Positions 3,080 to 36,159 of a stretch of 36,159 nucleotides of DNA are shown piece by piece. A program made the position numbers and the translations under genes. This stretch comes from a virus. The stretch lies in the IMG/VR virus record IMGVR_UViG_3300020185_000135, positions 1 to 36,159 of that record. One strand, 5' to 3'. The notes below the pieces were generated by a model, which was given only the letters and a program-made list of their open reading frames with translations, did no database searches and was not told the origin of the DNA. How positions within the stretch are numbered: the stretch's first letter is position 1; every line of letters starts with the position of its first letter.

Positions 3080-3097
3080 GTCTATTTATTTATATCT

Positions 3098-3130
3098 GTT
3101 CTCAATGTGTTCTCAATGTGTTCTCAATGT
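3098..3130. repeat. Three perfect tandem 11-bp repeats
   Basis: GTTCTCAATGT is repeated three times without gap (3098-3108, 3109-3119, 3120-3130), followed by a partial fourth start (GTTCC). On the transcribed strand this is ACATTGAGAAC times three, ending in GAACAGAT, which resembles the start of the shared early leader (GGAACAGAT). The unit is close to one DNA helical turn and lies in the gap upstream of the 41-aa mini-gene. A protein-binding array is the simplest reading. Confidence 0.8.
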
Positions 3131-3147
3131 GTTCCTAATTAAGAAAT

Positions 3148-3991: not shown

Positions 3992-4828
3992 TTATTTTTT
4001 TTTGCGATATTTTGGATCTAGGATCATAGGTGTTGTATTTTTCCACTTGATCTGGTGATGAAGTCTTACGTGTTTTGCGTTCATCATTGCTATTTTCACA
4101 CTACTAGGTTGCATCATTACACTATGAAAAGACTTAACATACGTACCACTTAAAGCATATTGGTCTGACATACCACCTTTACTACTTTGTGTATCTCCTT
4201 GACTTAAATTTATATTTGTAAAAGTGAAAAATACTTCACCTCTAGATCCTAGAGTTGTATAGGTGTTTACGTCTTCATTGATTGATCCTATAAATTTAAA
4301 TCTACGATCTGTACTACATAAAAACGAGTTCATACACTTACGTTTTAGTTTGATCCCACTAAATCCCCCGATATGATCCCCACCTTGACTAAAAGCAATA
4401 CTTTTAATATTAACACTTTTGTAGAATTTTAGCATGATCTCAAATACTTTGTCTAGGTTGTTAATTTTCTTTTCACCCTCTACATATCGATAACCTAGAG
4501 AATAATAGTCATCGTCAAATTGAACAAAATACTTGATTCCTAATTTTTCAGCAATATCAAAACAAGCATTTCGGGCATGAATTATAACTTTGCGATTATC
4601 AAAATTGTTTCCCTCATCTACTCGATCTGCGTACCACTTTTTATCGAATATTTCTATGTTCTCTTTACCAAAGTTTTTTACATACTGATCAATAGTTTTG
4701 TCTTCATTGTCAATTACAAAGACTACACGACCTGTATATCCTCTTGCTTTGATCAACTTCATAGTTTTTACATTATCGGGTCTACCATGAGTTAATATGA
4801 AAACTGCAAAATCATTCAGTATTGCCAT
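3992..4828 (-). CDS. Predicted GT-A glycosyltransferase, TET-associated-like (GT3)
   Basis: A 278-residue protein with the nucleotide-sugar strand motif ILTHGRPD at residues 11-18, HARNACF at 84-90, the metal-binding DDD at 105-107 (FVQFDDDYY) and a distal NEDVNTY motif at 184-190. The architecture parallels the two glycosyltransferases at 199-1712, but the sequence is clearly diverged. It overlaps the upstream 133-aa gene by 17 bp, suggesting a dedicated partner. It ends operon C; downstream is AT-rich sequence without a clear terminator. Predicted to modify phage DNA by analogy with the family; the acceptor is unknown. Confidence 0.65.
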   Translation of the reverse strand: MAILNDFAVFILTHGRPDNVKTMKLIKARGYTGRVVFVIDNEDKTIDQYVKNFGKENIEIFDKKWYADRVDEGNNFDNRKVIIHARNACFDIAEKLGIKYFVQFDDDYYSLGYRYVEGEKKINNLDKVFEIMLKFYKSVNIKSIAFSQGGDHIGGFSGIKLKRKCMNSFLCSTDRRFKFIGSINEDVNTYTTLGSRGEVFFTFTNINLSQGDTQSSKGGMSDQYALSGTYVKSFHSVMMQPSSVKIAMMNAKHVRLHHQIKWKNTTPMILDPKYRKKK

Positions 4829-10407: not shown

Positions 10408-11676
10408 TTAACCAACAAACTTACTAATTTTTAGATCAATATCCATAACTTGAATTCCGATTGATCCCTCACGATTCTTTGCCGTAATAAATTCACATTT
10501 ATTTAAACTAGATTCACCTGTTATTAATTGATCTTCCCCATAGTATTCTGGTCTATGCAAAAAACTCACAATTGACGCATCTTGTTCAATCTCTCCCGAC
10601 TCTTTAAGATCGGGTAAACTTGGTCGTTTTCCTGTACGACTAGAATCTCTAGATAATTGTGCTAATGCTATTACTGGGATCTTAAGATTTTGAGATAGTA
10701 ATTTTACTCCATTTGAAATCTCCGTTACTTGCTCGTATCTACTTCTATTTGAAATAGGTATTATTTTTTGTATGTAATCAATAATGACTACATCGATTTT
10801 AAAACTTCTATTTAACTCTAAAATATCACTTGTAATAGTATTTATCGATTTACTCCCCTCAATAACTCTAATGTGATTTAAACAATCATATAGCATACTT
10901 GTATGTATATTTTCAATATCACTACTATTCATCTCTCCGTATTTGATCTTGTTTGTATCAACTTCACTTAAATACCCCATAATTCTTCTCATGACTTGTT
11001 TTTGTGACATTTCTAATGCAAAAAACAGAACATTTTTTTGTTGATTTGCAAGTTCTAGCATTGTACTAATTCCCCATGCTGTTTTTCCCATTGCTGGTCT
11101 AGCACCTACAACCATAACATCAATATCCTCTAGTAATATAACTTTATCCAAACAATTATAACCTAATTTCGTTCCTTGAAAGTTACCAACTTTTGCTTGA
11201 TCATGATCTTCTAAAATATTAAACATAATATCCGTATTAGATTGAATATTTTTTTTAACACTATTAAATTCTAAATTATTGATTAGATTCTCAAACTTGG
11301 TTTTGTTTAGTTTCTCATCACGTTTCATTATCAAAAGATCATGTACTAATTTGTCTGCTTGTCTTAAAGACAATTCGTTTTCTAGATCTAGAACTAAATT
11401 ATCTAAACTAACAATTTCGGTTAATCCTAAATTATTTGTCATAGCCGATAACTTCATTGCTATTTCATTTGTAAAGATTCCACGATTTTTAAATCCGTCA
11501 CACATCGACAAAAGATCAATTTGCAATCCTTTTTTGATAACATCATTTGAAACTGTGTAAAGACTTTTCATAAATCCCGTAAGGTGATAGGATTCCTTTA
11601 AACGTGAAAGTATCTCTATTTGCGTATTACGGTCTGATGTAATAATTATACCATAAATTTTATCTAGACTCTTCAT
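10408..11676 (-). CDS. dnaB: Replicative DNA helicase, DnaB family
   Basis: A 422-residue protein with an N-terminal helical domain (about 1-150) and a RecA-like core with Walker A GARPAMGKT (191-199), FALEMSQKQ (219-227), Walker B VVIIDYIQ (296-303), an ALAQLSR motif and GEIEQDAS in the H4-type region. This is the full DnaB arrangement at a typical length. It unwinds DNA at the phage fork, presumably loaded by the initiator-like protein encoded directly upstream with a 4-bp overlap. The phage has no DNA polymerase, so it must borrow the host replisome. Confidence 0.93.
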   Translation of the reverse strand: MKSLDKIYGIIITSDRNTQIEILSRLKESYHLTGFMKSLYTVSNDVIKKGLQIDLLSMCDGFKNRGIFTNEIAMKLSAMTNNLGLTEIVSLDNLVLDLENELSLRQADKLVHDLLIMKRDEKLNKTKFENLINNLEFNSVKKNIQSNTDIMFNILEDHDQAKVGNFQGTKLGYNCLDKVILLEDIDVMVVGARPAMGKTAWGISTMLELANQQKNVLFFALEMSQKQVMRRIMGYLSEVDTNKIKYGEMNSSDIENIHTSMLYDCLNHIRVIEGSKSINTITSDILELNRSFKIDVVIIDYIQKIIPISNRSRYEQVTEISNGVKLLSQNLKIPVIALAQLSRDSSRTGKRPSLPDLKESGEIEQDASIVSFLHRPEYYGEDQLITGESSLNKCEFITAKNREGSIGIQVMDIDLKISKFVG

Positions 11677-12308
11677 AGTGTTGGTACGTATTTACTTGGT
11701 TTACTACTAGAATTGTAAAACTTGTCGATCTTGTCTGGTCTACTAAAAAATTCTAACGTACAATACTTAAATTCTGTATCTATATGATATTGATCTTTTT
11801 TACAATTTTTCATACACTCAATTATCTCATCGTATGTGTAACCTAATTTTATTAATTTCTTATACTTTCTTTTTACTACGTCTGATACAACTTTTGATTT
11901 TTTATTGAAAACTTGATTAAAATCGAGTAATAAACTCTTAAAATTTATTTTAAGATCATTACCATTACCATTACCATTATCACTATCAAGGTTAATTGGG
12001 TTATCTTTGGTTTCACTTGGGTTGTTTTGGCTTTTCTTTGGTCTACCCCCTTTCAATCCATTTTTTTGGTTTCTCTTTACAATATTATCGTATTTTTCTT
12101 GATCTCTTTTAAACTGATTGTCAAAATACATAATTGCTAATTTTAACCAAAAGTGATTTTTGATCATTTTCTCACGATACTTTGCATCGAAATTTGGATC
12201 ATGATAACTACGTATTGTCTTAAACAAAATTCCCGCTTGTTCATTGTCTAAATGTTCTAGGATCTCAAGACTATCTACGTATAGAATAAATGATTTTTTT
12301 TGTGTCAT
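11673..12308 (-). CDS. Replication-initiator-like protein (DUF6291-type N-terminus)
   Basis: A 211-residue protein in three parts. Residues 1-85 resemble the DUF6291 domain (KKSFILYVDSLEILEHLDNEQAG). Residues 86-125 are a basic then Asn/Gly-rich linker (GGRPKK, then repeated NG). Residues 130-211 form a phage replisome-organiser-like C-terminus (YTYDEIIECMKNC, then YCTLEFF). It lies immediately upstream of dnaB, as initiators and loaders often do. The linker-coding DNA contains phased TTGG repeats that may be origin iterons, as in lambda O. The initiator role is inferred. Confidence 0.65.
   Translation of the reverse strand: MTQKKSFILYVDSLEILEHLDNEQAGILFKTIRSYHDPNFDAKYREKMIKNHFWLKLAIMYFDNQFKRDQEKYDNIVKRNQKNGLKGGRPKKSQNNPSETKDNPINLDSDNGNGNGNDLKINFKSLLLDFNQVFNKKSKVVSDVVKRKYKKLIKLGYTYDEIIECMKNCKKDQYHIDTEFKYCTLEFFSRPDKIDKFYNSSSKPSKYVPTL
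11957..12045. repeat. Hexamer repeat and helically phased TTGG motifs inside the initiator gene (possible origin)
   Basis: CATTAC is repeated three times, followed by two degenerate copies (11957-11986). TTGG then occurs at 11996, 12007, 12017, 12027 and 12038, spacings of 11, 10, 10 and 11 bp. Most are TTGG-N-TT. The spacing is not a multiple of three, so protein repeats do not explain it. An iteron array for the initiator is the natural interpretation, but origin function is not shown. Confidence 0.5.
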
Positions 12309-12538
12309 AGTTTACTTTTTATTATTTTATGGATTTGTTTATTTATTACTTTTTCTTTGGGTTTTGTTGGGTTTGTGTAGTGCAAACTTATCCAATATTT
12401 AGAATTTCCTAATGAGTCACTACAAATCTCTTTACCCTCTTGACAATCTTTTAATATTTGTTTAAACACTCTGTCTAGCATACTAAATTGAGTTGTACGA
12501 ATACAAATATTGATCTCTTTCATTTTCACTTTACTCAT
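12305..12538 (-). CDS. Unknown protein of the replication operon, 77 aa
   Basis: A basic soluble protein (MSKVKMKEINICIRTTQ) with a lysine-rich C-terminus. No motif is recognised. It overlaps the initiator gene by 4 bp and the 43-aa mini-gene by 8 bp. Its coding DNA holds two TTGGGTTT motifs exactly 10 bp apart (12357 and 12367), like those in the next gene. Confidence 0.6.
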   Translation of the reverse strand: MSKVKMKEINICIRTTQFSMLDRVFKQILKDCQEGKEICSDSLGNSKYWISLHYTNPTKPKEKVINKQIHKIIKSKL

Positions 12539-13773: not shown

Positions 13774-13790
13774 TTGGGTTTTCTTGGGTT
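13774..13790. repeat. Paired TTGGGTT motifs upstream of promoter E
   Basis: TTGGGTTTTC at 13774 and TTGGGTTTTT at 13784, exactly 10 bp apart, about 20 bp upstream of the -33 element. The same arrangement occurs upstream of promoter A. The remainder of 13756-13836 is AT-rich with no gene. Confidence 0.5.
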
Positions 13791-35658: not shown

Positions 35659-36060
35659 TTAATAAATAACTGCGTATTTGTCGCTAAATTCTTCTAACGT
35701 TAATTCTTGTTTTTGATCCCAATCTCCACGATTATAATAGAACTTGTCATATTCTGGTTTGATCTCCATTAATTCCATTATTTGAAAAATATTTGATCTA
35801 TCTTTGGTTGCTCTTTTGTGTCTGCTTTCAAAGTTTTTAGTCATTGAGGCATACAATTTGATAAAAGATTCTAGTAAAGTATTGTCTTTTGCGTATTTCT
35901 CTTTTGCTTCTTCTAATTTCTTGTCGGTTTCTTTAATTAAAATCTCATTCACTTGTTGTACCTCATGAAGAAGTTTCCAACGATCCTGTAATTTTTGTAC
36001 TCCGTTTAGTAGGTTAGCAATGTTTCCGAAATCTGTGGTTAATTGTGCAATGTTTTTCAT
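35659..36060 (-). CDS. First gene of early operon A, coiled-coil protein, 133 aa
   Basis: Mostly helical (LQDRWKLLHEVQQVNEILIK, KKLEEAKEKYAKDN) with an acidic C-terminal segment ending DKYAVIY. No known domain. Its promoter and leader lie at 36074-36123 and, because of the terminal repeat, also at 52-101. Probably among the first phage proteins made. Confidence 0.68.
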   Translation of the reverse strand: MKNIAQLTTDFGNIANLLNGVQKLQDRWKLLHEVQQVNEILIKETDKKLEEAKEKYAKDNTLLESFIKLYASMTKNFESRHKRATKDRSNIFQIMELMEIKPEYDKFYYNRGDWDQKQELTLEEFSDKYAVIY

Positions 36061-36159
36061 GTTTTTTTTTTTTGTTATTGTTAAATCTGTTCCAAACTTA
36101 AGTCAATTATTTTGATCTGCAAGTGTTTTTCCCAAAAGTTTTTTTGGGTTATTTGGGTT
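36023..36159. repeat. Terminal direct repeat, right copy
   Basis: Matches 1-137 with two mismatches (36031 and 36033). It includes the start of the 133-aa gene, promoter A with its leader (15-mer at 36074-36088, -7 box at 36093-36100) and the TTGGGTT pair. Confidence 0.9.

Follow-up and report, generated by a model that had tools for sequence, protein, structure and literature searches.

A candidate replication origin of helically phased boxes within the DUF6291 initiator gene of a tailed phage

A short segment in the linker-coding part of an initiator gene very probably serves as the theta-type replication origin of a tailed phage of ~36 kb, in which the phage's own initiator would bind a series of boxes, an adjoining hexamer array would melt and a DnaB helicase would be recruited. 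The DNA analysed, referred to here as the window, is the complete stretch of 36,159 nucleotides of the IMG/VR virus record IMGVR_UViG_3300020185_000135. A first-pass annotation of the window had placed a candidate origin inside the initiator gene, and comparison with related sequences speaks for this placement through the ladder of boxes in the relatives, the rank of the site under a box model, the unstable DNA beside it and the helicase context.

The initiator gene (11673..12308, minus strand) encodes a protein of 211 aa with an N-terminal DUF6291 domain, a disordered linker whose coding DNA holds the putative origin, and a C-terminal helical domain. In a Pfam scan residues 6-91 matched DUF6291 (PF19808, E 2e-18) with 66.8 bits against a gathering cutoff of 27.2; this domain, encoded at 12045..12308 (minus strand), is proposed to bind the boxes. 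In the AlphaFold model the N-domain is helical with a pLDDT of about 85 and linker residues 99-117 are unstructured (pLDDT <50). The C-domain, encoded at 11706..11948 (minus strand) and proposed as the helicase-recruiting part, is helical and confidently predicted (pLDDT about 93). Weak PHROG matches to primosomal, O-like and replication-initiation proteins were obtained, and the weak match to phrog_18020, 'replication initiation O-like' (E 1.6e-6), was confined to the C-terminal half. Fold matches among viral proteins (BFVD) were DUF6291, replisome-organizer and DnaD-type proteins. The fold gave no match with E <1 and no Z >4.1 in the PDB, and the protein gave no match in NCBIfam. The end of the gene overlaps by 4 bp the start of a DnaB-like replicative helicase gene (10408..11676, minus strand; PF03796 E 9e-60, phrog_19 E 3.5e-64), in agreement with the earlier description of an initiator-like gene directly upstream of dnaB. 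Family, fold and replication context together identify the gene as that of an initiator.

The other genes of the window mark it as a tailed phage and include those for terminase, portal, major head protein, Erf, exonuclease and NinG. Three glucosyltransferase-like genes (phrog_842) are located at 202-1712 and 3995-4828, a hint that the phage DNA may be glucosylated or carry another sugar modification. An almost identical repeat of ~138 bp was found at 1-138 and 36022-36159, where the database finds no end repeats; because of this repeat we think it probable that the genome is circular or terminally redundant and was opened during assembly. In an intergenic gap at 3097-3134 there is a perfect and helically phased 11-bp tandem repeat of an unrelated word, TGTTCTCAATG, in 3.5 copies. 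The GC skew, suggested earlier as a check on the origin, is negative throughout the window, which is to be expected with all genes on one strand, and with no switch at the site it was uninformative.

On the plus strand TTGG occurs at 11996, 12007, 12017, 12027 and 12038, in steps of 11, 10, 10 and 11 bp, exactly as first described, and the adjoining CATTAC array was found as (CATTAC)3.8 at 11957-11979. Read on the coding strand, the five CCAA words occupy codon frames 0, 1, 0, 2 and 0, and the step size is therefore not codon-driven, as the first-pass annotation had also stated. This chain is the longest 10/11-bp phased chain among all tetramers in the window. A five-step CCAA chain was reached in 2 of 20,000 synonymous resamples of the initiator gene, and permutation of the codons inside the gene gave one in 121 of 20,000. 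With every tetramer counted across all 29 genes, 4 of 60 codon-preserving resamples contained a five-step phased chain, and the phasing judged from the window alone is therefore notable and suggestive, not decisive.

The box unit is better written as [AG][AG]CC(C/A)AA on the minus strand, which gives six boxes at 11990-12043. These are Box 1 (GACCAA, 12038..12043), Box 2 (AGCCAA, 12027..12032), Box 3 (AACCCAA, 12017..12023), Box 4 (AACCAA, 12007..12012), Box 5 (AACCCAA, 11996..12002) and Box 6 (AACC in AACCTTGATAG, 11990..11993), all on the minus strand. Box 5 stands at -15 from the hexamers, the same distance as in relatives. Box 6 was absent from the earlier list and abuts the hexamer array; the junction between the two is identical in Shewanella phage ZP9. 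With a box matrix built from relatives without the window, the site ranked first in the 36 kb with a score of 38.0, compared to 11.5 for the next.

Next to Box 6 lies the hexamer array GATAGT GATAAT (GGTAAT)3 GAT (11955..11987, minus strand), the proposed start of unwinding, and beyond it an AT-rich stretch (11900..11960), proposed from its duplex stability as the unwinding element. The 60-mer at 11930-11990, which includes the hexamers, is less stable than 96.8% of the 60-mers in the window, and the stretch 11900-11960 beyond the hexamers is less stable than 98.8% of them; the box segment is among the most stable 5.4% of the window. For codon choice the hexamer arrays of relatives were delimited by their amino-acid pattern. 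Serine was encoded by AGT in 93% of cases in these arrays (n=180) and in 16% elsewhere in the genes, Asp by GAT in 97% compared to 67%, and Asn by AAT in 96% compared to 53%. Part of the purity of the hexamers could stem from repeat slippage. The C content of the array was dropped as evidence, as it is fixed by the definition of the array.

Homologues were collected from phage records, IMG/VR and bacterial genomes. With the window protein as the only query, viral contigs gave no match; matches were obtained once an alignment of N-domains was used. The box statistics come from a non-redundant set of 59 homologues, drawn from Vibrio, Shewanella, Pseudoalteromonas and Riemerella phages and from uncultured viruses. 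In the 59 linkers ACCCA occurs 139 times, compared to 34.6±5.2 under the synonymous null (maximum 55 of 1000), and is distributed over the three reading frames as 59/48/32. Exact 10-bp spacings between ACCCA words numbered 46, with 1.7±1.3 under the null (maximum 7). Codon permutation within each linker gave 58.8±5.4 ACCCA words and 6.2±2.4 spacings of 10 bp. Vibrio, Shewanella and Pseudoalteromonas phages and one Bacteroidetes MAG carry AACCCA at ~10-bp steps followed by GATAGT-type hexamers in their linker DNA. The autocorrelation of AACC linkers peaks at lags 10 and 20, with a lag-10 z of 26 in the first set and 18 in a differently built set; a second subgroup with the word GCAAA gave lag-10 z values of 12 and 21 in the same two sets. 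Measured from the first hexamer, AACC starts in relatives form a ladder at about -5, -14, -24, -34, -44, -54 and -64, and the boxes of the window at -6, -15, -25, -36, -45 and -56 fall within 2.3 bp of it. The conservation of spacing proposed earlier as a check was thus observed, with the ~10-bp register and the order of boxes before hexamers kept in dozens of DUF6291 initiators whose linker proteins differ.

These counts bear on whether the linker is simply a flexible spacer rich in Pro, Asn and Asp, in which the DNA repeats would result from amino-acid bias and slippage and have no role as DNA. The linker is predicted to be disordered, low-complexity linkers are common and slippage can expand pure hexamers. 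Synonymous resampling also retains much of the ladder: the phase concentration R was 0.82 observed and 0.75 after resampling, and we dropped it as a clean DNA-level test because the null was nearly as high. Since the amino acids largely fix the phase of the ladder, the case for selection at the DNA level rests on the excess of sites, on a period that is not that of codons and on the use of three frames. On these points the spacer explanation does poorly, as the boxes lie in three frames, their spacing is not divisible by 3 and they are four times as frequent as the synonymous expectation. In addition, two distinct box words share the lag-10 peak, and AACCC is followed by A in 92% of phased sites, with variable bases in the spacers. 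We therefore regard a mere protein spacer as quite improbable.

Linkers contained 25 clusters of at least three phased AACC boxes, every one of them on the coding strand; outside linkers, 440 kb searched on both strands yielded 5. IMG/VR was also scanned blindly at the DNA level for three copies of AACCCA spaced by 10 bp, and of the 80 loci that could be read at least 34 fell in DUF6291-like genes. The remainder comprised DUF1376-like ORFs, further initiator-like ORFs and some plain AACCC tracts. The proteins of L119, L122, L127, L138, L146, L153, L188, L189 and L196, which we take to be DUF1376-like initiator-type proteins, combine GGRPKK with three AACCCA at 10 bp. Downstream of the initiators at the scanned loci are mostly genes for DnaB, primase-helicase or DnaC-type loaders, and at some loci a methyltransferase or an uncharacterised gene instead.

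Within the window TTGGGTT occurs 20 times, with 5.1 expected, mostly as AACCCAA on the coding strand. Outside the proposed origin sites are located at 122-137, 2662, 7792, 12357-12373, 13774-13790 and 13885, with the members of pairs 9-10 bp apart. The pair at 12357..12373 (minus strand, 10 bp apart) lies in the preceding ORF and is the second-best phased chain of the window under the relatives-only box model. These sites are possibly auxiliary initiator sites like oriR of SPP1. The upstream pairs at 12357/12367 and 13774/13784 and those near the contig ends would also suit operator or enhancer-like sites, bound by the initiator itself or by another regulator, that control transcription of the replication genes and are not an origin; initiators often regulate themselves. 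The main array is, however, positioned mid-gene on the coding strand and joined to hexamers and unstable DNA like known in-gene origins, whereas operators are expected upstream of the gene, which leaves the operator explanation a very small probability.

The box word differs among relatives. On a tree of the N-domain it changes at least 13 times, compared to about 30 in shuffles, and none of 500 shuffles was as low; the C-domain cluster requires 30 changes on the same tree. G001, the nearest phage by DnaB, has an array with the word ATACG, a difference that counts against the origin reading, although 10-bp phasing was seen in it by eye; with L116 this word is represented by two sequences, too few for the lag test. 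The origin could also be bound by a host factor, with the DUF6291 protein merely bridging to the helicase. The N-domain lacks a recognised DNA-binding fold among solved structures, and triplets of AACCCA occur in unrelated DUF1376-like ORFs as well, both of which would fit such a factor. The box word nevertheless follows the N-domain tree as described and does not follow the host, as Vibrio phages have AACCC or TACCAA and Riemerella phages also differ in word. We consider binding by a host factor unlikely and favour binding by the DUF6291 half of the initiator.

The GGRPK motif (residues 87-91; 12036..12050, minus strand) is an AT-hook-like arm that occurs together with the AACC word. GGRP was found in 34 of 37 AACC linkers, compared to 3 of 44 with other words. 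Different codons are used for the proline (CCA 17, CCT 12, CCC 1), and the motif is therefore kept as protein. The association involves few independent changes on the tree, and because only two of these are supported we treat the link between GGRPK and AACC as a lead.

The C-domains differ among relatives while N-domain and linker stay. In L003 and L004 the C-domain of the window protein is encoded by a gene of its own, immediately upstream of DnaB; the DnaB ORF of L004 (3315-5729, 804 aa) is seemingly split by an intein-like insert after the Walker A motif. Two Riemerella phages (L006 and L007) have near-identical initiator C-domains and different N-domains, and the junction directly follows the hexamers, as though exchange had taken place at the origin. 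In Flavobacterium phage FCL-2 (L008) an unrelated N-domain is placed on the same C-domain, with TCCGA/TCGGA words before an AT-rich stretch, possibly the same arrangement built on a different word.

Taken as an origin, the segment would work as follows. Copies of the DUF6291 initiator would bind the six short boxes (11990-12043), one per helical turn. With all boxes on the same helical face, the copies would stack side by side and strain the adjoining DNA. Melting would then occur in the hexamers and the AT-rich DNA beyond them (about 11900-11987), presumably beginning at the hexamers, and the C-terminal domain would contact and recruit the DnaB-type helicase, the product of the neighbouring gene. 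An action of the element as RNA, for instance as mRNA structure or antitermination site, is hardly credible: the element is transcribed within the initiator mRNA, but RNA structure was rejected on folding, as it folds worse than shuffles (z +1.72, with 193 of 200 shuffled sequences folding equally well or better), and a helical-repeat spacing carries no evident meaning for RNA.

Repeated boxes in the initiator gene, adjoining unstable AT-rich DNA and an adjoining helicase gene are among the features of in-gene phage origins, and these three were found here. As a kind such an origin is already known, because lambda, SPP1 and pSK41 all place the origin in the initiator gene; the difference lies in the short, one-per-turn and word-exchangeable boxes in three frames. 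In SPP1 the gene of the replisome organizer gp38 contains oriL, with direct repeats and an AT-rich unwinding element, and the phage encodes a DnaB-family helicase (PMC6316719). These features resemble those of the window; the separate loader gp39 and the proven second origin oriR belong to SPP1. The origin of lambda lies in the middle of gene O, with repeats first, the AT-rich region after and a helicase-recruiting gene next (PMC5043065, PMC7466680), an order shared with the window. Lambda has four 18-19-bp inverted-repeat iterons at steps of 20, 24 and 23 and the P loader, whereas the window has direct boxes of 6-7 bp at 10-11 bp and DnaB directly downstream, and its boxes thus lack the iteron form of ori-lambda proper. 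In the RepA_N plasmid pSK41 the N-domain binds boxes in the rep gene, the origin DNA encodes a dispensable linker and a separate C-domain recruits the replication machinery (PMC5703833). The same layout of N-domain, origin-encoded linker and C-domain was found here; the RepA_N winged-helix family, the four Rep boxes and the primase contact are those of pSK41. No sequence relation between the two initiators was detected, the Pfam scan gave no RepA_N match and the PDB fold search no solved relative. Iteron plasmids and DnaA-trio unwinding elements also combine helically phased binding sites with an unstable repeated element (PMC5043065, PMC10797057). A DnaA-trio element with consecutive 3'-(G/A)AT-5' was rejected, however, as GATAGTGATAATGGTAAT... 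in the hexamers gives a TAR triplet only every 6 bp. Plasmid iterons are generally longer than the boxes of the window. In a literature search with few subscription journals no description of short, one-per-turn, exchangeable boxes in three frames was found, nor any paper naming DUF6291.

Judged from the sequences compared, the origin layout is common to phages of many unrelated bacteria. It is possible, although we rate it at somewhat less than an even chance, that these phages share an undescribed and widespread class of origin, with a frame-independent ladder of one-turn boxes in rigid register with an array of melting hexamers. The box words (AACCC, GCAAA and probably ATACG or TACCAA) would be exchanged together with the protein arm (GGRPK for AACCC), the geometry would stay constant and the C-domains would be swapped freely. 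If this is true, a function would be given to DUF6291, and possibly also to DUF1376-type phage proteins. DUF6291, whose function has so far been unassigned, is likely a family of initiators with a predicted origin at a known spot, and the origins of many uncultured phages could then be located from their genome sequences. With word, arm and C-domain all varying, the family would be naturally suited to testing how initiators select boxes.
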